DNA of 64,000 nt from Selenomonadaceae bacterium (GTDB lineage Bacteria > Bacillota > Negativicutes > Selenomonadales > Selenomonadaceae): assembly GCA_017428215.1 (NCBI GenBank), contig JAFRRH010000068.1, positions 1 to 64,000 on the forward strand. Direction: 5' to 3'. The notes under the pieces are model-generated. The model did no database searches. It had not been told where the DNA came from and worked only from the letters and a program-made list of their open reading frames with translations. Both the position numbers and the translations under genes were made by a program. Below, piece by piece: positions 19,327 through 29,156 of the stretch (the stretch's first letter is position 1; each line of letters starts with the position of its first letter).

Positions 19327-20112
19327 TCAAGTGTAGGAGCCGACGATATAACCGCCGTCCACGAAAAAATTCTGTCCGGTTATCCAGGCGGCGCGGTCGC
19401 TTAGCAAAAATAAAATCATGCCGGCAACGTCTCGCGGCGTGCCCAAGCCTAAAAGATGTCGTGAAATAATTTCCTCGCTAGCTGTCGCTGCGTACATTTC
19501 GTTTTTCATCATTTCCGTTTGAACCAGCGCGGGTGCCACTGAATTTATCCTGTGCTTGCCGCGAATTATTTCTGCCGCGAATGATTTAACTGCCGCTTGC
19601 ACTGCCGCCTTTGCCGCCGAATATGCAAACAAAGATTTTCCGCTAAAGTCGCCCGCGATTGAACTCATCAGCACGAATGACGCGCCGCCGTCCGAAAATT
19701 TTTTCCGCGTTGCCGACTGTACAAAATTTACTGCGCCCCAAAAACTCGTATCGAAAATTTTATGGGCAAGTGATTCGTCAAAAGAATTTAGCGGCGTCAA
19801 GCCCCAAATGCCCGCCGTGTACACGCCGCCATTAATCCTGCCAACTGTGCTCGTAAAGTTGCTTAAAACCTCCGACCAATCGTCAGCCGTCGCCGTGATT
19901 ACGTCAAGTTGTTCCGTGAAAATTCGCGGCGGGTGTTTAACCAAACTTAGCGGTGAATTTTTTTTCAGTTCGGTGAGTCGCTCCAAATTTCTGCCGATTG
20001 CTAAAACATTTGCGCCGCTCTGCGCCAGCTCAAGAGCTACTTGTTTGCCAATGCCCGACGACGCGCCAACTACTACAAAATTTTTCCTCTTAAAATCAAA
20101 TGTCACGCTCAT
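19327..20112 (-). CDS. Short-chain dehydrogenase/reductase
   Basis: A protein of 261 residues, classical SDR. It has the cofactor motif GASSGIGKQVAL (about 16-27), the active-site serine in VLMSSIAG, YSAAKAAVQ with catalytic Tyr and Lys, and the C-terminal GQNFFVDGGY typical of the FabG group. The usual NNAG reads YTAG here. The substrate cannot be told from sequence. It precedes aroC by 12 bases and may be in the same transcript. Confidence 0.8.
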   Translation of the reverse strand: MSVTFDFKRKNFVVVGASSGIGKQVALELAQSGANVLAIGRNLERLTELKKNSPLSLVKHPPRIFTEQLDVITATADDWSEVLSNFTSTVGRINGGVYTAGIWGLTPLNSFDESLAHKIFDTSFWGAVNFVQSATRKKFSDGGASFVLMSSIAGDFSGKSLFAYSAAKAAVQAAVKSFAAEIIRGKHRINSVAPALVQTEMMKNEMYAATASEEIISRHLLGLGTPRDVAGMILFLLSDRAAWITGQNFFVDGGYIVGSYT

Positions 20113-20201
20113 AGAACAAGACCTCTATTTTTATAATTTCCCACAGCATTTTATCAGTTAATTCTTTTATCAGCAAGGAAAAAATGTTATCCTGCTGTAT
20201 C

Positions 20202-20230
20202 TTGTTTATCTGAAGATTTTCTGATAATAT
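20202..20230 (+). promoter_or_regulatory. Possible promoter of the Hsp70-like operon
   Basis: TTGTTT-17-TAATAT lies 27 bases upstream of the GrpE-like start. No CIRCE (HrcA) inverted repeat is visible, so standard HrcA heat-shock control is not indicated. Confidence 0.35.
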
Positions 20231-20256
20231 TTCTAGTAACGAAAGGAGATGATAAA

Positions 20257-20826
20257 TTGGAAACGCAATCGGAATTTGTCGCGGAAGAAACGGAGCAAAA
20301 TTCTGTAGCCGCGACGTTAGAAAAAATTTTAGACTTGCAACAAAAAAATTCGCGGCAATTAGTTCAAAGTCTGCGCGAGAATGTAAACTTTCAAAATCAA
20401 GTGCGGCGGGGCATGCAACAAGAACTTGACGCCTTAAAAGAACAACAGCGCGGCGAACAGTTCACGCCGATTTTAAAATCAATCGCAACGGTCTGCGTAG
20501 AGTATAGAAAAATGTTGACGGACGAAGCCATTTCAAGACGGACGCGACGCAATCTTAAGCTACTTTTCGACGAGCTGGAAGAAATTTTATCGGAGTATGA
20601 CGCAGAAATTTTCACGTCGGAAATCGGCGAGCCGCGTCGCCCGTTACTAACTAAAATCGTTAACACCGTCGCGACCACTAATAAAGATCTACACAACACC
20701 ATAGCTAGGAGCAGACGCCCCGGCGTTATTCGCAATGGGCGGACGCTTTACCGCGAATTCGTTGACGTTTATGTTTACGACAGCAACGCGGGTATCAAAA
20801 AATCGGAATCTGTTCGCAGTGAGTAA
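20257..20826 (+). CDS. GrpE-like nucleotide exchange factor, divergent
   Basis: A protein of 189 residues. The N-terminal half is a long coiled coil (about 15-70, rich in Gln/Glu/Leu), followed by a helical middle. The C-terminal region RRPGVIRNGRTLYREFVDVY resembles the beta domain that GrpE inserts into the Hsp70 nucleotide cleft. It is immediately upstream of an Hsp70-like gene (15-base gap), as expected for a dedicated exchange factor. Sequence similarity to housekeeping GrpE is low, so it is a paralogue. The TTG start follows AAAGGAGATGATAA. Confidence 0.6.
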   Translation: METQSEFVAEETEQNSVAATLEKILDLQQKNSRQLVQSLRENVNFQNQVRRGMQQELDALKEQQRGEQFTPILKSIATVCVEYRKMLTDEAISRRTRRNLKLLFDELEEILSEYDAEIFTSEIGEPRRPLLTKIVNTVATTNKDLHNTIARSRRPGVIRNGRTLYREFVDVYVYDSNAGIKKSESVRSE

Positions 20827-20841
20827 AGGAGATAAAATTTT

Positions 20842-22470
20842 ATGAGCACATACGGAATTGACTTGGGCACAACTTATTCTTGCATAGCGCGTTTGGACTC
20901 TAACGGCAACCCCGAAGTTATTCGCAACAATGAGGACGACAGCAACACCGTCGCCAGCGTAGTTTTTTTTGAAAATGAGAGCAATGTAATCGTCGGACAG
21001 GCGGCTAAGGAAAATATTGAGACTGACGGCGATCGCGTCGTTCAATTCGTCAAGCGGGAAATCGGCAAACGCGACACTCGCACTTACGAATTCGACGGCA
21101 AAACTTATACGCCCGTTGAGATTAGCGCACTGATTTTAACGCGGCTGAAAAATTTGGTTGAGGCGCAGGGCGGCACGATTGAGGACGTCGTTATAACTGT
21201 TCCCGCTTACTTTGGACTTGAGGAACGTTCCGCGACAAAACAGGCAGGCGAACTCGCTGGACTTCACGTGTTGAGCTTAATTAACGAACCGACTGCGGCG
21301 GCTTTGAGCTATTGTGCCCGTCAATTTCAAGAGGACAGGACGGTTTTAGTTTACGACTTGGGCGGCGGCACGTTCGACGTAACTGTTTTAAAAATGTCGA
21401 TGACGCAAAATAATTCGGGGCGCGACGTTCAAAAAATCACGGTGCTTGCCACTGACGGCGACGACAGACTCGGCGGTAAAGATTGGGACGATAAACTTTA
21501 CAACCACATTTTGCACGCCTGTTGCGACGATAACGGCTTGACGCCCGAAGAAATCGAAGCTGAAACGCGGCAAGATATTCGCTCCAAAGTCGAAGAGGCT
21601 AAACGTAAACTTAGCAAGAAACAATCCGCCAAAGTTCGTATTGACGTAAACGGCTCGCGCACGGAAATTGTTATCAAGCGCACGGATTTTGAGCAGATGA
21701 CTAGCGACCTCGTTGCAAAGACTATGGGCTACATTGATAAGACGTTGGATAAAGTTCCTGCTGAGGCGATTGATACTGTTCTTTTAGTCGGCGGCTCAAC
21801 TTATATGCCGATGATAATTGACGCGGTTGAGGCTAAATTTCCTGGCAAAGTTCAACAGCACGACCCCGATCAAGCAGTTGCAAAGGGCGCGGCGATTTAT
21901 GCAAGCATGTTGGTTGAGGAAGTCGGATCTTTGTCCGCGCAGGGCGAGGAAACTTTCGGCGGCGAAGTTGCTCAAGCTGAACAACTTACCTCAAAATTTA
22001 CCGTCGAGGATCAAACGCCGCGTTCGTTCGGACCTGGTGTCGTCGATATGAACGGCGCAAAGCATAAATACGTTTTGGAGAATTTTATAAAGATTGGCGA
22101 GAAAATGCCCGCCGTGTTCACGAAAACTTATTATCCGCTTGAAGATAATCAAGAACTCGTTCGCCTGCGCGCCTTTGAAAATATGTCAACCGATGACACG
22201 TTGATTCCCTGCGTCGACGAGGACGGCAATCCGCAAGCCACTGACCCCGCGCATAACGTCAAACTTTTGGGCGAACTGATAGTTAATCTGCCGCCCAATA
22301 CCAGCCGCGACACGCCGATTAAAGTTACGTTCAAAGTTGATGCGTCGGGCGTACACGTCGAGGCGGTTAACACCAAAACTAACGAGACCTTTGAAACTTT
22401 CCTGCGCACCGAAAGCGACATTGACGTTGCGGGCAGTGCCGTTCATCAACTCCGTATTTCTGCCGATTGA
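20842..22470 (+). CDS. Hsp70-family chaperone paralogue
   Basis: A protein of 542 residues. The ATPase domain is intact: GIDLGTTYSCIA (phosphate 1), ITVPAYF, NEPTAAALSY, VYDLGGGTFDV (phosphate 2) and VLLVGGSTYMP (adenosine). After about residue 365 there is a linker and a beta-rich substrate-binding domain, ending at an acidic tail without the helical lid. That is shorter than housekeeping DnaK (about 610). DnaK-type linker DLLLLDV is absent. It is part of an operon with a private GrpE-like protein, a zinc-ribbon/FN3-like protein and a GTPase. It is likely a specialised chaperone-like ATPase; clients are unknown. Confidence 0.85.
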   Translation: MSTYGIDLGTTYSCIARLDSNGNPEVIRNNEDDSNTVASVVFFENESNVIVGQAAKENIETDGDRVVQFVKREIGKRDTRTYEFDGKTYTPVEISALILTRLKNLVEAQGGTIEDVVITVPAYFGLEERSATKQAGELAGLHVLSLINEPTAAALSYCARQFQEDRTVLVYDLGGGTFDVTVLKMSMTQNNSGRDVQKITVLATDGDDRLGGKDWDDKLYNHILHACCDDNGLTPEEIEAETRQDIRSKVEEAKRKLSKKQSAKVRIDVNGSRTEIVIKRTDFEQMTSDLVAKTMGYIDKTLDKVPAEAIDTVLLVGGSTYMPMIIDAVEAKFPGKVQQHDPDQAVAKGAAIYASMLVEEVGSLSAQGEETFGGEVAQAEQLTSKFTVEDQTPRSFGPGVVDMNGAKHKYVLENFIKIGEKMPAVFTKTYYPLEDNQELVRLRAFENMSTDDTLIPCVDEDGNPQATDPAHNVKLLGELIVNLPPNTSRDTPIKVTFKVDASGVHVEAVNTKTNETFETFLRTESDIDVAGSAVHQLRISAD

Positions 22471-22484
22471 AAGGAGTTTTTATC

Positions 22485-22709
22485 ATGAGTACTTACAAAG
22501 TTAATCCGATTGACATTCCGGACGAGAAGACGACCTTTTCGCCGCGTGAATGGAAATATTTTTTGAAAGAATTAAAAATGCGCGGGTTTGAAAAAGTTGA
22601 CTTGTGCATTAACAACGGGAAATATCTTGCAAAGCTTGACCGAGCTGAAGAACAACTCGCGGCTGGCGAAGGCAAATTGTTCACGCTTGAAGAGTTGAGG
22701 AATTTCTAA
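22485..22709 (+). CDS. Small antitoxin-like protein
   Basis: A protein of 74 residues with AAAGGAG ahead of ATG 22485. The C-terminal half (KYLAKLDRAEEQLAAGEGK then LFTLEELRNF) looks like the toxin-wrapping tail of RelB/YefM-type antitoxins. It overlaps by one base (TAATG) with a short gene resembling the N-terminal half of a YoeB/Txe toxin, the usual antitoxin-toxin order. The N-terminal part is not a recognisable DNA-binding fold. It is embedded in the Hsp70-like operon. Confidence 0.5.
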   Translation: MSTYKVNPIDIPDEKTTFSPREWKYFLKELKMRGFEKVDLCINNGKYLAKLDRAEEQLAAGEGKLFTLEELRNF

Positions 22710-22846
22710 TGCCAAATGTTTTATTTTTGAATGAAGCCCTTGCCGAGTTTAGTTATTGGGCGTATAACGACAGAAAAGTTTTTGACAAAATTAACAAGCA
22801 TATCATCGAAGTTCTTTCTTGCAAAAGTCATTACGGAGATAAATAA
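22709..22846 (+). pseudogene. Truncated YoeB/Txe-like mRNA interferase
   Basis: A 45-codon frame starting at TAATG, overlapping the antitoxin-like gene. The segment FSYWAYNDRKVFDKINKHII matches the YoeB/Txe N-terminal pattern (YW..NDKK..KKIN.LI). It stops at HYGDK, where YoeB has G-x-GKPE and then the catalytic Glu, Arg, His and Tyr-His-Tyr C-terminus. All catalytic residues are therefore absent and it should be inactive. It may be a remnant, or a leftover that still binds antitoxin. The family call was made by eye. Confidence 0.5.
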
Positions 22847-22866
22847 AATTTTTGGGAGGATTGAAT

Positions 22867-25800
22867 TTGGCGAAACGAAATATTTTTGAAATGCTCGGTT
22901 TGGAATTTGACCCTCCCGACAACGTGAAAAAAATTCGCGCTGCCTATGAGGCTTGGAAAAAACGATTAACGACTGAGCAAAATACAATGGTTGACCCGAC
23001 GCGGCTGGCGGAGATTCGTGCGGAATTGCAAATGGACGATTACATTGCGCTGACGATTGATAATCCGCGCTTTCGTCAACAGGCGGCGGAGTCTCTTAAA
23101 CAACAGCGCATTGAGGAATTGCGGCTTTACATTGACATTCAGCGCGGCGACACATCGGGCACGTTGCAAGTAAATCAAGCGCAAATTCGGCAGATACGGG
23201 ACAAGTTGCGGCTAAGTCCGGCGACGATTGAGGCGACGTATAAAGAGCAGGGATTTGAGATAAAGCCCGCTAAGTCCGCGCAGAAAATTTTGGCGACGCT
23301 GAACAGTTTTTTCCTTAATGATTCGGTAATGGGGGAGCTAAGAAAAAATTTTGCGGCGTTCCAACTCGTCCCCGATGAAAAAAATTTCCCGTGGTCGGCT
23401 AATGTTCATGACCTTTACGAGCTGGCGTTTTATATCGAAAATCAAATTGAGCCGTCGCCGGATTTTTATCGGCGTCACCCAACCGACGACTTGAGGGAAA
23501 TTTTTCGTGAAGCCGCTAAAAAAGTTTCCGCGCCAATTCCGCAGTGGCAAGCGATTAAAGCTCTCCTCAATCTGGCGCAAACTCAAGTTTTCAACACCGA
23601 CGACAGCCGCTTTAAATACGATCACTCGTTGAAGATTGAGACGTTGACAGATTTTTTTGCCAAAATAAAAGCCGCGCCCGACCTGTTCAAGCACGACAAT
23701 TATTTTGCGGATAATTGCATTAATCGGATACAGCGCACCTTCCCGAACTTTTTAACTTACGAGCAAAGTGCCGCGCTCTATAACAAGGCGGCGGGCTTGC
23801 TGAAAAATCCCTACGAATCGACGGGCGACGCGGGCGAAAATTCTTTTTGTGTGACGTGTGCTAACTGCGGAGCCTTTGAAAATTTCCGAACTCGTGAGGA
23901 AGGCGAGCGGGCGCGTTGCAAAATCTGCGGCGAAAATTTCTTTATCGAGTGTCCGAAATGCGGCAAGAAAATTCCCGCGACTGCCGACCGTTGTACCGCG
24001 TGCGACTTTTCTATTGTCGAGTTTAAAAAGTTTTCAAATTACATTGCTGAAGCGAATTCAATGCTTGACTTAATCGAGCAAGCCCGCAACGCTGATGAGG
24101 ACGTTCACATTGTCATGGCGGAGATTATAAAAATTCTCGCTAAAGCTAAGCTACTCAAGCCCGAATCCAACGACTTGAAAAAATTGGAATGGCGCATTAA
24201 TAAAGTTGCCGGCGAACTCAAGCGGCGTGAATTATTTGCTTGGGCTGATAAAAAGTTGCCGAGCCTGTCGATTGCGCCCGCCAAAGCCGTAAGCGATTGC
24301 GTGGAGATTTTGCGCAAGATTAAGGACTATAAGCCTGCACTTGACAGATTGAAATTAATTCCGCCAAAAACTCCGAGCGCGATTGTCGCCACGCTTAAGG
24401 AAAATTATTCGCCGGTCAACAACTCAAGTATTAGTAAAATTTCCGTTAAGGCTAAGTCTACTAGCGTTGGCTCCGCCGAGTCGAATTTAATTTGCAACAT
24501 TTCTTGGCAAGCTCCCGCCGATTTGGGCTTGACTTACACGCTGATTAAAAAAATTGACGGCGTGCCGAAAACTTATCGCGACGGCGAAATTTTGATTGAG
24601 AATACCGACCGCCTCGAATTTACAGATTACGACGTTAAACCTGGCGTGCTTTACGGCTACGCGATTTTCTCGACACGACTGGGAACAATTTCTGCACCGA
24701 CAACTACAACCGCCGCCCATTATAGCGACCTTGACGAGAAAAAATTAATTGCTAAGACGGAGGACGGCGCATGTAAATTTATTTGGCGGCTCCCGTCGGA
24801 AAATTGTTTAGGCATTCGGATTTTGCGCAGTGACAGCGCGGGTAAAAGCGTTGTGGTTGCTGACTGTGTGCAATCGCCCTTCGTTGACAACAGCGTTAAA
24901 AATCGTAAATCTTATCAATATCGCTTGCAATGCGTCTACTACGCCGCCGAAGATAATATTTCTAACAACGAAAAATATTTTGCCCGCCAAAGCACCGATG
25001 AAATTTTAAGCGGCGTTTGGAAGATTGAACGAACTTATAAATACAGTCACGGCTTGACCGTTAGCTTGACGCCCGAAAAGCCGCCTAAGCCTGTGGAAAA
25101 TTTAATTTGTACTGTCAGGAACGGGCGAGCCGCTTTTCATTGGAAATCGACGGGAGATTTTGCCATTTGGTTTAAGCAAGTCGTCAAAGAGTCCGCGCAG
25201 ATTGATAACAAAGTTTTTGGCTTAGATAAAATCGACGAAATTTTAGGCAGTGGCGTCGTCTACAAAAAGGCGGAGAGTTTTGACGAGACTTGCGATTTTG
25301 CTTTGAGCGGCGATAATGTTAAAGTTGCCGTCATTAGCGCGACGCGGGAATTTGGACTTATAAACGAAATTATAACTTGTGCAAACGTCGAACCTTGCGA
25401 GATTGACGCCGATAAAACTCAAATTGACGCGGGCGGCTTGAAACTTGTCTTAAAGAGCGTGCCCGAAAATCTTTATATGATTCACTACAAAATTAACACG
25501 AGCGACGCCGACGAACTTTACGCGACGATTGAGACGGCTAAGGCGCGGCAGATGAATAGAATTTACGCGGCGAAATATGCGCAGGATACATTTATTTTGC
25601 AGACGCACTTGCCGCCGAAAGAAATTTTTATTACAGTTATTGGCGAGTACAAATTTAGCGACGGAACGTCGGCTTATTGTGCGCCGAGCACGTTGACTTT
25701 AAACAATCGCCCTAAAGAAATTATTTCGTATCGGCTGGAGTGGGGGACGAGCGGACTTTTCAAAAAGGAAATTCATGCTAAGGATTGTAAGCTGATAATC

Positions 25801-26079
25801 GAGAGCAACGCCAAATCTACGCCGAAAATGTCGTTGGTGTGTCGAAGTGATGGACGCATGAACATTGAGGCGGGCGATTCAGCGACGCGCATATTGGGCA
25901 CAGTTCGCGCATATCCCGAAGGCTACAGCGGCGGGCGGCTTGAAACTAATCTGCCTAACGAAATTTGGAAAGAAGTTTCTTCGGGTACCGTTGTTAAGCT
26001 CCTCACTTCCAAAGAGGATGAAAAGCGTTTCGAGCTTAAAGCGTCGCGCCCTGATAGTCTTATTGTTCCGAAGAAGTAA
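22867..26079 (+). CDS. Large J-like, zinc-ribbon and FN3-like protein
   Basis: A protein of 1070 residues. Start TTG 22867 is chosen for GGGAGGA seven bases upstream; in-frame TTGs at 22852 and 22861 are too close. The N-terminus (NIFEMLGLEFDPPDNVKKIR) resembles a J-domain lead-in but has no HPD, so Hsp70 stimulation is uncertain. Residues of about 328-395 hold zinc-ribbons: CANCG, CKICG, CPKCGKK and CTACDF. Further on there are repeated beta modules of fibronectin III type (NISWQAPADLGLTYTLIKK with GVLYGYAIFSTRLG; then PKPVENLICTVRNGRAAFHW). No signal peptide or membrane segment is seen, so it is cytoplasmic. It is probably a scaffold linking the chaperone pair to the GTPase downstream. Function unknown. 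Confidence 0.55.
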   Translation: MAKRNIFEMLGLEFDPPDNVKKIRAAYEAWKKRLTTEQNTMVDPTRLAEIRAELQMDDYIALTIDNPRFRQQAAESLKQQRIEELRLYIDIQRGDTSGTLQVNQAQIRQIRDKLRLSPATIEATYKEQGFEIKPAKSAQKILATLNSFFLNDSVMGELRKNFAAFQLVPDEKNFPWSANVHDLYELAFYIENQIEPSPDFYRRHPTDDLREIFREAAKKVSAPIPQWQAIKALLNLAQTQVFNTDDSRFKYDHSLKIETLTDFFAKIKAAPDLFKHDNYFADNCINRIQRTFPNFLTYEQSAALYNKAAGLLKNPYESTGDAGENSFCVTCANCGAFENFRTREEGERARCKICGENFFIECPKCGKKIPATADRCTACDFSIVEFKKFSNYIAEANSMLDLIEQARNADEDVHIVMAEIIKILAKAKLLKPESNDLKKLEWRINKVAGELKRRELFAWADKKLPSLSIAPAKAVSDCVEILRKIKDYKPALDRLKLIPPKTPSAIVATLKENYSPVNNSSISKISVKAKSTSVGSAESNLICNISWQAPADLGLTYTLIKKIDGVPKTYRDGEILIENTDRLEFTDYDVKPGVLYGYAIFSTRLGTISAPTTTTAAHYSDLDEKKLIAKTEDGACKFIWRLPSENCLGIRILRSDSAGKSVVVADCVQSPFVDNSVKNRKSYQYRLQCVYYAAEDNISNNEKYFARQSTDEILSGVWKIERTYKYSHGLTVSLTPEKPPKPVENLICTVRNGRAAFHWKSTGDFAIWFKQVVKESAQIDNKVFGLDKIDEILGSGVVYKKAESFDETCDFALSGDNVKVAVISATREFGLINEIITCANVEPCEIDADKTQIDAGGLKLVLKSVPENLYMIHYKINTSDADELYATIETAKARQMNRIYAAKYAQDTFILQTHLPPKEIFITVIGEYKFSDGTSAYCAPSTLTLNNRPKEIISYRLEWGTSGLFKKEIHAKDCKLIIESNAKSTPKMSLVCRSDGRMNIEAGDSATRILGTVRAYPEGYSGGRLETNLPNEIWKEVSSGTVVKLLTSKEDEKRFELKASRPDSLIVPKK

Positions 26080-26097
26080 AACTGCGGAGGATTTTAT

Positions 26098-27252
26098 ATG
26101 TCTATGTTCAGCAAGTCGGCGGCAATTTGTCCGCACTGTCTAAGGGAATTAAAATTGAGCAGCATGAAATTTTATTGCGTCCCCGACGAAGACAATCGCC
26201 ACGAAGTTAAGCTATCGTTCGCCGATAAATTCAGAGGGCGGCTCCCCGTCTGCAAAAGAAAATTCTGCAGGAATCACGGCTTGACGATTCGAGAGGCGAC
26301 TTGCAAGCATTGTGGAGAACCGCTCCCGCCGCAACTTTTATTCCACGATAAATATCTAAGCTTCTGCGCGGTCGGCGTATCTGGCGCGGGCAAGTCAAGC
26401 TATATGACGACGCTATTGCACGAACTGAAATATTCGGGGTTGCCGTGGATTTTGCAAGCAATGGACGTGGACACGACGCGGCGGGCGCAACTTAACGAGC
26501 AATATGTTTACGAAGAGCGGCATTGTTTAAGAGGAACAGAGTCGGGCGTTTCACCTAAGCCGCAACTTTGGACGATTATGGATAATTCAGTTAAGGGCGA
26601 AAAAATTCCGACTTACGCGCTAACGATTTACGACGGCGCGGGCGAAGATTGCGAACGCATTGATTATACGCCGCTTGACGCTAAAATAAGCCATTACTTG
26701 TCGGGCGCACGAATGCTTTTGATAATGTTTGACCCACTGTTATTGTCAAGCGTGCGCGTGGAACTTTCGAGAGATACTTTGAATGCCTCAATGGCTACCG
26801 ACCGTCAAACGAGTGCGCCGGGCAATATGGTTAATATGGTGAATTCGTTGGCAAATTATATTCGCCGCAACTGCAATATTCCGCCCGGCAAAAAAATTGA
26901 CCGTCGCGCCGCCGTCGTCTTAACCAAACTTGATGCCTTAACGGAAATGCTTAACGGCTTTGCTTCCGGCTCAACGATTCTTAGAGAAAGTCCTCACGTT
27001 CAAAATCGCGGCTTCGTCGAGTCTGATAGCGTAATGGTTGATTTAGAAATACGCGACTGGCTCACGCGGCAGGGTGAAACGGCTTTTCTCGGTGCGATTG
27101 ACGCTAACTTTAAAGACGTTCGAGTTTTCGGCGTATCTAGTTTTGGGCGTCCGCCTGATTCGCGTAAACGGCTTGCCAAAATTCGTCCACACAGAGTTTT
27201 AGATCCGTTAATGTGGATGCTTGCCAGCGAGGGCATTATCCCGACGATTTAA
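26098..27252 (+). CDS. Zinc-ribbon P-loop GTPase-like protein
   Basis: A protein of 384 residues. N-terminal cysteine pairs CPHC, CKRKFC and CKHCG form a zinc-binding module (about 11-80). A P-loop GVSGAGKSSYMTTLL (about 98) follows, a Walker B/G3-like TIYDGAGED (about 180) and a G4-like VLTKLDAL (about 282), the order of a TRAFAC-type GTPase. It resembles the GTPase domains found in multi-gene bacterial conflict systems (double-GTPase type). It lies 18 bases after the FN3-like gene and belongs to the Hsp70-like operon. The nucleotide specificity and family need a profile search. Confidence 0.65.
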   Translation: MSMFSKSAAICPHCLRELKLSSMKFYCVPDEDNRHEVKLSFADKFRGRLPVCKRKFCRNHGLTIREATCKHCGEPLPPQLLFHDKYLSFCAVGVSGAGKSSYMTTLLHELKYSGLPWILQAMDVDTTRRAQLNEQYVYEERHCLRGTESGVSPKPQLWTIMDNSVKGEKIPTYALTIYDGAGEDCERIDYTPLDAKISHYLSGARMLLIMFDPLLLSSVRVELSRDTLNASMATDRQTSAPGNMVNMVNSLANYIRRNCNIPPGKKIDRRAAVVLTKLDALTEMLNGFASGSTILRESPHVQNRGFVESDSVMVDLEIRDWLTRQGETAFLGAIDANFKDVRVFGVSSFGRPPDSRKRLAKIRPHRVLDPLMWMLASEGIIPTI

Positions 27253-27264
27253 GGAGTGATTCCT

Positions 27265-27852
27265 TTGAAAAAATTTTTAGCTGTATTTTTTACGCTGATT
27301 TTATTGGCGACGACTGCTCAAGCCGCTGAACCCGTACGCATTGCCCGCTTGCCGATAATTTTTCAACGCACAATCCCCGATGATGATACTTGCGCTGAAC
27401 TCGAAGTTCTTCTTGCCCGCGCAATTCACATTCCGCTAAATGGAACTTTACAGCTCGTCGAATATTTGCCGCCAAAAGATTCTGCACAAGTTTTAGGCGA
27501 TATGTGGCAAGATATGCGCGCCGAAAATAAAAAGGCGAAGCTCCAAGACGCAATGCGCCCGCTCGCCCAAAAACTTGATGCGGATATTATCGTGTGCCCC
27601 GTTCTAAATCAGTACAGTCAACACGTTTCGATTTCTTCTGGCTGGCACGGCGAAGATTATATGATAAGCAACGTTCGCTTTGAATTGATTATCTACGACC
27701 GCCGCACCGACGAATTGATTGACAAAAAAGCCGCGCAGTTTTACAACGACTCTTACAGCCTGCGCGGCACGGCATCTTTCCTATCGAAAATTTGTTTAGA
27801 TAAAGTTATTGAGGATACTAAATTACGTCAACGCATAGTCGCCATAAGATAA
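27265..27852 (+). CDS. Exported protein, function unknown
   Basis: A protein of 195 residues starting at TTG 27265, eight bases after AAGGAG. The signal peptide KKFLAVFFTLILLATTAQA is cleaved near AQA-A. The mature part (ADIIVCPVLNQYSQHV, FELIIYDRRTDELIDKKA) has the alternating pattern of an alpha/beta fold like those of CsgG/TolB-N-type envelope proteins. It is the last gene of the Hsp70-like operon and the only exported product, 12 bases after the GTPase gene. Confidence 0.5.
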   Translation: MKKFLAVFFTLILLATTAQAAEPVRIARLPIIFQRTIPDDDTCAELEVLLARAIHIPLNGTLQLVEYLPPKDSAQVLGDMWQDMRAENKKAKLQDAMRPLAQKLDADIIVCPVLNQYSQHVSISSGWHGEDYMISNVRFELIIYDRRTDELIDKKAAQFYNDSYSLRGTASFLSKICLDKVIEDTKLRQRIVAIR

Positions 27853-27857
27853 ATTTT

Positions 27858-29156
27858 TTACGAGAGATATTTATCTAAAAGTGCTTCGTAGTCGGGTATC
27901 GGCAACGGGCGCGAGAAGAAATAACCTTGAATTGCCACGTCACCTAAGCTAGACACGTAATCCATTTGAGCTTGAGTTTCTACGCCCTCAACCACGACGC
28001 TCATGCCTAATTCCTCTGCCAATTCGACGATAAATTTAAGGATTATCGCCACGCGCTTAGATTTTTCCAATTCGCGAATAAATGCCATGTCGACTTTGAG
28101 AGTATCAAGCGGCATGTCTTTTAGCATGTTCAGCGACGAATAGCCCGACCCGAAGTCGTCCATTAAAATCGAAAATCCCAATTCGCGGAACGTGGAAATC
28201 ATATCGAGGAGTTGTAGCTGATTATCGGTGTACGCGCTCTCTGTGACTTCCAATTTTAACATCCACGGTTCTAAGTTATATTTTTCAAGTAACGTCGCAA
28301 GGAAGTCTGGCAAGTCTAAGCTGTAGAAATTCAGCCGCGACAAGTTAACGGAGATGGGAACGACTTCTTTGCCTTCGTCGAGGCGTTTCCGTTGAAGTCT
28401 GCACGCTTCCTCCCAAACAAACCGGTCAAGGCGCACGATAAAGCCGTTGCGTTCAAAGACGGGAATAAATTTGCCGGGCGAAACCATGCCGTGTATCGGG
28501 TGAAACCAGCGAACTAAAGCTTCGGCACTGGAAACGGTATTTCTATGCGGATCGTAAATCGGCTGAAGATAAATTGTAAACTGATTCTCCAACAGCGCGG
28601 CTTCCATGTTGCCGGTTATAAGTTGCTCTTCAATCATCTGTTCGCGCATTTTTGCATCGTAGTAAGCGTAGCGTGTCACGTAATTGCCTTTGATTCGCCG
28701 AAGTGCCATGCCTGCGCGGTCGCACATTTGGTCAATCGGCAACTTGATACTTTCAACGGGATAAATGCCCGCAAAAAATAAAATGTTGTGGCTAATGTGG
28801 AGAGATTGAATTCGCATATCAAGGTCTTTAATAATTTGCTCAATTTTAAGTTCATCACTCGGTATGCACAAAATAAAATGGTCAGCTTCGGCACGACAAC
28901 TTATGGAAGTCCGCGAGTTTAATGTCGCCTTAAAATAATCTGCCGCCGCACGCAAAATCAAATTACCCGTGTCGACGTGGAATAAGTCATTGATTATTTT
29001 AAAGCAACTTATATCCATGCAGACGATACTATATTTAACGTCGTAACGTGCGCCCAAAAGCAATGTTGCTTCTCGATAAAAAGCCTCGCGATTATAAAGC
29101 CCCGTTAATTGATCAAACTTGCTGCCGATTATCGGCAAAACTCCTTCTGCTCGCAA
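27858..29156 (-). CDS. Degenerate GGDEF plus intact EAL phosphodiesterase
   Basis: A protein of 432 residues with no membrane segment. The GGDEF domain (about 12-165) keeps the fold (TGLYNREAF, MDISCFKIINDLFH) but the active loop reads RAEADHF, so cyclase activity is lost. The EAL domain (about 180-430) keeps AEALVRW, DDFGSGYSSLNML, LKVD and VEGVETQAQ, so it should hydrolyse cyclic di-GMP to pGpG. It is convergent with the Hsp70-like operon (5-base gap). With flagellin and pilin genes at the far end of the window, a role in motile/sessile switching is plausible. Confidence 0.88.
   Translation of the reverse strand: MRAEGVLPIIGSKFDQLTGLYNREAFYREATLLLGARYDVKYSIVCMDISCFKIINDLFHVDTGNLILRAAADYFKATLNSRTSISCRAEADHFILCIPSDELKIEQIIKDLDMRIQSLHISHNILFFAGIYPVESIKLPIDQMCDRAGMALRRIKGNYVTRYAYYDAKMREQMIEEQLITGNMEAALLENQFTIYLQPIYDPHRNTVSSAEALVRWFHPIHGMVSPGKFIPVFERNGFIVRLDRFVWEEACRLQRKRLDEGKEVVPISVNLSRLNFYSLDLPDFLATLLEKYNLEPWMLKLEVTESAYTDNQLQLLDMISTFRELGFSILMDDFGSGYSSLNMLKDMPLDTLKVDMAFIRELEKSKRVAIILKFIVELAEELGMSVVVEGVETQAQMDYVSSLGDVAIQGYFFSRPLPIPDYEALLDKYLS

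Follow-up and report, generated by a model that had tools for sequence, protein, structure and literature searches.

The 64,000-nt stretch of DNA analysed here (the window) carries a run of genes on the forward strand between positions 20257 and 27852. The window appears to come from the genus Quinella, as its GTPase E is 88% identical to the GTPase of a locus from Quinella sp. 1Q5 (L086). The run starts with gene A (20257..20826), which encodes a GrpE-like nucleotide-exchange factor of 189 aa from a TTG start with AAGGAG upstream. Gene B (20842..22470) codes for a lidless Hsp70 of 542 aa. Two small ORFs follow, namely C (22485..22709; 74 aa, antitoxin-like by position) and C′ (22709..22846; 45 aa), the truncated remnant of a YoeB-like toxin ORF. 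D (22867..26079) encodes a scaffold protein of 1070 aa with J-like helices, zinc ribbons and tandem FN3-like domains, E (26098..27252) a DO-GTPase of 384 aa with N-terminal zinc ribbons and F (27256..27852) an exported-type protein of 198 aa. A first-pass annotation, which left C and C′ unmentioned, had placed A, B, D, E and F at gaps of 12–20 bases. This holds for A–B (15 bases) and D–E (18 bases); B and D, however, are separated by ~396 bases containing the 74-aa ORF and the broken YoeB-like ORF, and E and F by 3 bases. Judged by sequence appearance, the flanks are ordinary, with aroC and a short-chain dehydrogenase upstream and GGDEF/EAL-like genes downstream. No CIRCE heat-shock operator was found in the window at up to 3 mismatches, and heat-shock control via CIRCE was rejected on this basis; a promoter and terminator scan of positions 20000–28200 yielded nothing above shuffled sequence. 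The gene set itself is far beyond chance, since dozens of Quinella genomes have kept these genes.

The product of A matches the Pfam GrpE family with an E-value of 3.2e-6 and 27.4 bits (curated cut-off 25.8), which bears out its first description as GrpE-like; by profile it is a GrpE-like exchange factor, with putative exchange activity. B matches Pfam HSP70 at 1.9e-87 and is ~42% identical to the genus DnaK across the matched part. Alignment to this DnaK showed a complete nucleotide-binding domain with its motifs and a substrate-binding SBD-beta, with the lid absent, again in agreement with the first reading. B also deviates at the position of R167, the DnaK arginine that is engaged by the HPD of J-domain proteins (PMC7289447), where it carries a serine. 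None of the 18 system Hsp70s compared, those from complete, GAP1-bearing systems included, has arginine there, the residue being Ser, Asn, Ala, Thr, Gln, Lys or Gly; all 28 genus DnaK loci matched retain the arginine. On the partner side, the HPD is missing from the J-like part of every scaffold examined, GAP1-bearing ones included. As far as these sequences go, the double loss of HPD and R167 is a trait of the whole class and not of Quinella alone. Loss of R167 may be common among divergent Hsp70s and less special than it looks, the comparison here being between system Hsp70s and genus DnaK. A loss of the R167–D481 ion pair was dropped as a candidate, since the genus DnaK also lacks that aspartate.

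The scaffold D begins with J-like helices (residues ~1–93), remains alpha-helical to ~310, carries zinc ribbons at ~327–386 and further helices to ~496, and ends in tandem FN3-like beta-sandwiches (~541–1060). Its AlphaFold2 model has a mean pLDDT of 84 and a global pTM of only 0.39; therefore the domain folds can be trusted but not their arrangement. The best PDB matches in Foldseek were fibronectin type III arrays (4.5e-11). Six cysteines (331, 334, 365, 376, 379 and 478) are invariant across homologues. The zinc ribbons and the missing HPD had been noticed in the first pass and were found again here, with the FN3-like domains now identified by structure. The N-terminus of D aligns weakly to the J-domain over helices I–II only (hhalign probability 14%), and the HPD tripeptide expected between helices II and III is absent. 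No J-domain was matched in the PDB, and on this result and the weak profile alignment a true J-domain was rejected. In G129 two ORFs, with the break near residue 720, stand in place of a single scaffold gene (L116 6866-10080), and the scaffold matches in G334 break near the same place, where contig ends are a possible cause.

E carries the G1 motif GVSGAGKS, the Walker B motif DGAGED, with the glutamate typical of DO-GTPases of the TRAFAC clade, and the G4 motif TKLD. Across 21 homologues of E, GxxGAGK[ST], D.AGED and the G4 K.D are invariant or nearly so, and E possesses six invariant cysteines. The P-loop and G4 motifs, for which a family check had been proposed, passed it. The AlphaFold2 model of E (pLDDT 85, pTM 0.87) retrieved GTPases as top Foldseek matches, including MglA, Arf and eEFSec, and weak profile matches were obtained to FtsY and YcjX. 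As the match to Pfam DO-GTPase1 (1.8e-4, 21.3 bits) lies under the curated cut-off of 27 bits, E is assigned to the family through its homology to annotated members. This homology, the motifs and the predicted fold confirm E as a GTPase of the DO-GTPase family.

The remaining genes of the locus are probably passengers. C has no match to a Pfam family, and among the loci compared its relatives occur only in the B–D gap of closely related Quinella. C′ matches Pfam YoeB_toxin at 7.3e-4, below the cut-off, and covers profile positions 1–30 of 80. Both genes between Hsp70 and scaffold probably have no part in the core. F, whose signal-peptide-like N-terminus was judged by eye in keeping with the earlier reading of an exported protein, is present in 41/60 Quinella genomes, sits elsewhere and unlinked in deeper branches, and no counterpart was seen in the Oscillospiraceae operons described below. 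It has a dN/dS of 0.16–0.26 and, of all genes at the locus, the weakest correlation with the rest; F was probably recruited in one Quinella branch. H, a helical protein of 214 aa encoded between E and F in other genomes (L039 8231-8875, L118 8396-9100), occurs in 21/60 Quinella genomes, follows D in G277, which has no E, and is missing from the window genome. Both F and H were rejected as core parts, F being patchy and H confined to those 21 genomes.

The neighbourhood varies between genomes. Related ORFs of 98 aa occupy the B–D gap of relatives. An MmeI-type (type IIL) restriction gene or a TRD+C fragment of one lies in the B–D gap or upstream of D in L030, L032, L035 and L080 and near B in L122 and L167. 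In G291, G298 and G308 the MmeI fragment is an intact ORF of 319 aa with 61–73% identity, perhaps a TRD-only protein that has been kept. In L040 (2775-5489) a 904-aa protein with TPR, ResIII/DEAD helicase and HNH parts is encoded between Hsp70 and scaffold. Two genomes, G311 and G324 (L111 10881-14563, L112 437-8327), carry genes for an uncharacterised protein and a PAPS-reductase/4Fe-4S protein after the scaffold, where the GTPase gene would be, and G311 has an additional 1404-aa protein in that stretch. Prepilin-like ORFs lie directly upstream of the GrpE–Hsp70 pair in at least nine deep-branching Quinella genomes (among others L117 11338-13233, L119 13655-15608, L123 1202-3292 and L168 2708-4703).

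We found D in 57/60 Quinella genomes and in 11/12 of those of good quality. A high-identity orthologue of B, counted from the listing, is present in ~56/60 genomes, A in 52/60 and E in 44/60. Most of these genomes are incomplete MAGs, and the counts are lower bounds; absences of E and breaks in linkage are partly assembly gaps. One genome that is 100% complete (G145) has neither A, B, D nor E. According to linkage counts made by hand from the listed coordinates, A and B are nearly always linked, and D and E are linked in 34/44 genomes. B and D, in contrast, share a contig within 15 kb in only 19/54 genomes, with ~35/54 unlinked when contig breaks are included. Many of these B–D breaks are contig ends, but true separations occur, among them G129 (~67 kb apart), G289, G314 and G298, and the genes have therefore scattered without being lost. 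Separation of the genes in most relatives had been named as the result that would speak against a common operon; it applies to the Hsp70–scaffold pair but not to GrpE–Hsp70 or scaffold–GTPase. Conservation of the operon across Negativicutes, which had been suggested as a check, is not general there and turned out to be a Quinella feature. In the class of the Oscillospiraceae, to which G377 with the locus L109 belongs (see below), the GTPase profile matched 7/391 genomes, G377 itself among them (6/390 others). Mobile carriage was considered and rejected, although not disproved, as no match was found in plasmids, phages or viral contigs, with a viral scan of two short patterns that gives weak evidence of absence.

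Within Quinella the divergence of A, B, D and E parallels that of DnaK, with correlated pairwise identities (rho 0.61–0.81, 0/500 permutations), and the four genes also correlate with one another (rho 0.66–0.92, 0/500 permutations). The near-universal presence of D and a divergence that tracks DnaK are not what a mobile or sporadic neighbourhood would display. dN/dS values for A, B, D and E range from 0.02 to 0.19 (A alone 0.05–0.17). In the D tree the genomes without E are G277 and a single clade of seven. A, B and D are still constrained in this clade (dN/dS 0.03–0.12), and E is therefore dispensable at the scale of the genus while the chaperone–scaffold core is not.

Gene sets of this type have been predicted before. 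Kaur et al. described GTPase-centric conflict systems in 2020, including GAP1-N2-type double-GTPase systems (PMC7159879), of which theme 2 consists of HSP70, GrpE and a DnaJ- or TPR-fused FNIII protein (PMC7159879). HSP70 and GrpE genes are both present in the window, over their Pfam cut-offs. Experimental work on DO-GTPase/HSP70 systems did not turn up in the open-access literature searched. Two loci from Oscillospiraceae/Clostridia (L105 and L109) encode DO-GTPase 1, GrpE, Hsp70, scaffold, GTPase 2 and GAP1 in one run, and an Hsp70-vWA protein is present in the L109 run and in G275. These nearest complete systems share 61–63% identity with the window in Hsp70, 43–46% between GTPase 2 and E, and 32–34% in the scaffold. 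Such operons, with DO-GTPases, GrpE, Hsp70, a J-like FNIII protein and GAP1, also occur in two genomes of the same family (G062 and G275), and GAP1 lies beside GTPase 2 in L107, L182, L184 and L186 as well.

GAP1 was not detected in Quinella. The GAP1-N2 profile (PF20013) matched 2/151 family genomes, namely G062 and G275, neither of them Quinella. The GAP1 protein of L109 as query gave matches in 0/60 Quinella genomes in a search without an internal positive control; related GAP1 queries do find GAP1 elsewhere. The Quinella loci examined likewise contain no match to a GAP1 protein, which would have N2, M and C domains and lie next to the GTPase gene. This negative depends on detectability by sequence, and Quinella may carry a diverged or replaced GAP1. 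Queries with Hsp70-vWA and GTPase 1 gave only matches in Quinella that, taken as a whole, were attributed to cross-matching with B/DnaK and E; on this reading Quinella probably lacks both a second GTPase and an Hsp70-vWA protein. Neither Pfam nor PADLOC recognised an effector domain in A–F, and some gap genes of relatives are defence-like but variable. A known defence system was rejected, PADLOC having given just a weak generic Hsp70-type match. The first-pass annotation had called the operon reminiscent of multi-component NTP-dependent conflict systems. This impression matches a published class and complete homologous operons, but GAP1 was not found, no effector domain was recognised, and the set behaves as a core part of the genus rather than as a mobile conflict system.

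We consider it probable that A–B–D–E derives by vertical inheritance from a GAP1-N2-type system and is a reduced, GAP1-less chaperone–GTPase assembly machine that has most probably been domesticated. The identity of the set is well supported; its function, including a physical complex, the direction of regulation, the insulation from DnaJ, the domestication and the client, is what we infer. In the proposed mechanism the proteins would form a cytosolic assembly in which D is both the scaffold and the receptor for clients. B, the lidless Hsp70 motor, would be positioned by the helical N-terminus of D, assembly would be mediated by the zinc ribbons on D and on E, and the FN3 array would bind clients or oligomerise. 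A would recycle ADP on B, and E could serve as a GTP-dependent switch that acts through D. The B–D pair may be insulated from the housekeeping DnaJ and DnaK because the HPD in D and its arginine in B are both absent. The module would serve a task of the cell itself, such as assembling one particular client or controlling its quality. Domestication is the most probable outcome because the set is fixed genus-wide, its genes are scattered yet kept, and one clade has dispensed with E but still holds A, B and D under purifying selection.

It is unlikely, by comparison, that the set still works as an anti-invader conflict system in which D senses an invader-induced client, Hsp70 and GTPase cycling builds a multimer that poisons or sequesters, and the variable neighbours are the effectors. 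The ancestral class is predicted to be anti-invader (PMC7159879), and several Quinella carry restriction, toxin or helicase-HNH genes in the B–D gap; however, these gap genes vary between genomes or have decayed, the set is nearly universal and inherited like DnaK, neither GAP1 nor a recognisable effector domain in the core was found, and neither the weak PADLOC match nor the search of phages, plasmids and viral contigs lends support. Because the set is fixed, descends vertically and is scattered but not lost, and because GAP1 and an effector were not found, we favour domestication over an active conflict system. A second Hsp70/GrpE set of the ordinary kind, working in general proteostasis beside the unrelated genes D and E, would be in line with the complete ATPase domain and SBD-beta of B and the tight A–B linkage, but is highly improbable: D and E co-vary with B (rho 0.88–0.90) and sit with A–B in Oscillospiraceae, B lacks both lid and R167, and a CIRCE element within 3 mismatches is missing from the window. 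Least probable of all is an envelope or pilus-assembly chaperone, in which A–B would serve the minor-pilin-like genes that adjoin it in deep Quinella and F would act outside the membrane, as the prepilin-like neighbours upstream of A–B in at least nine deep-branching genomes and the signal-peptide-like N-terminus of F might suggest, since neither the window nor most of the crown clade shows this neighbourhood and F has a patchy distribution, without linkage in the deeper branches.

If the domesticated assembly machine is the correct reading, Quinella is a candidate for the conversion of a predicted immune-type machine to housekeeping. We tentatively propose that this Hsp70/J-like pair, in which both sides lack the otherwise near-universal HPD–Arg coupling, is triggered to cycle in another way, plausibly by the DO-GTPase via the FNIII scaffold, and that in Quinella a predicted conflict system became a core cellular machine. 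Whether an Hsp70 can run without this coupling could be tested with the set. It also tells the kept core (Hsp70, GrpE and scaffold) apart from dispensable parts, with the GTPase lost in one clade and GAP1 apparently in the genus, and the GAP1-less version under strong purifying selection constitutes a small protein set for reconstitution.

YcjX is a Ras-like GTPase from a stress operon and is not known from an Hsp70 operon context. E shares with YcjX (structures 6nz4 and 6nz5) a weak profile match (4.3e-3), which is confined to the surroundings of the P-loop. With the DnaK/DnaJ/GrpE system the window set has in common the Hsp70 ATPase domain, SBD-beta and a GrpE-like exchange factor; it differs in lacking lid, R167 and HPD, and its scaffold is a 1070-residue FNIII protein. 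The closest likeness is to the GAP1-N2-type DO-GTPase systems, with GrpE, Hsp70, a J-like/zinc-ribbon/FNIII scaffold and a zinc-ribbon DO-GTPase in identical order, although the Quinella set has one GTPase, one Hsp70, no GAP1 found and no recognised effector. What is elsewhere a rare predicted anti-invader system is in this rumen genus a nearly universal part of the genome from which the hallmark component GAP1 has apparently gone: GAP1-N2-type systems are sporadic and mobile, whereas the Quinella set is fixed and vertically inherited in the genus, with components that are often unlinked.
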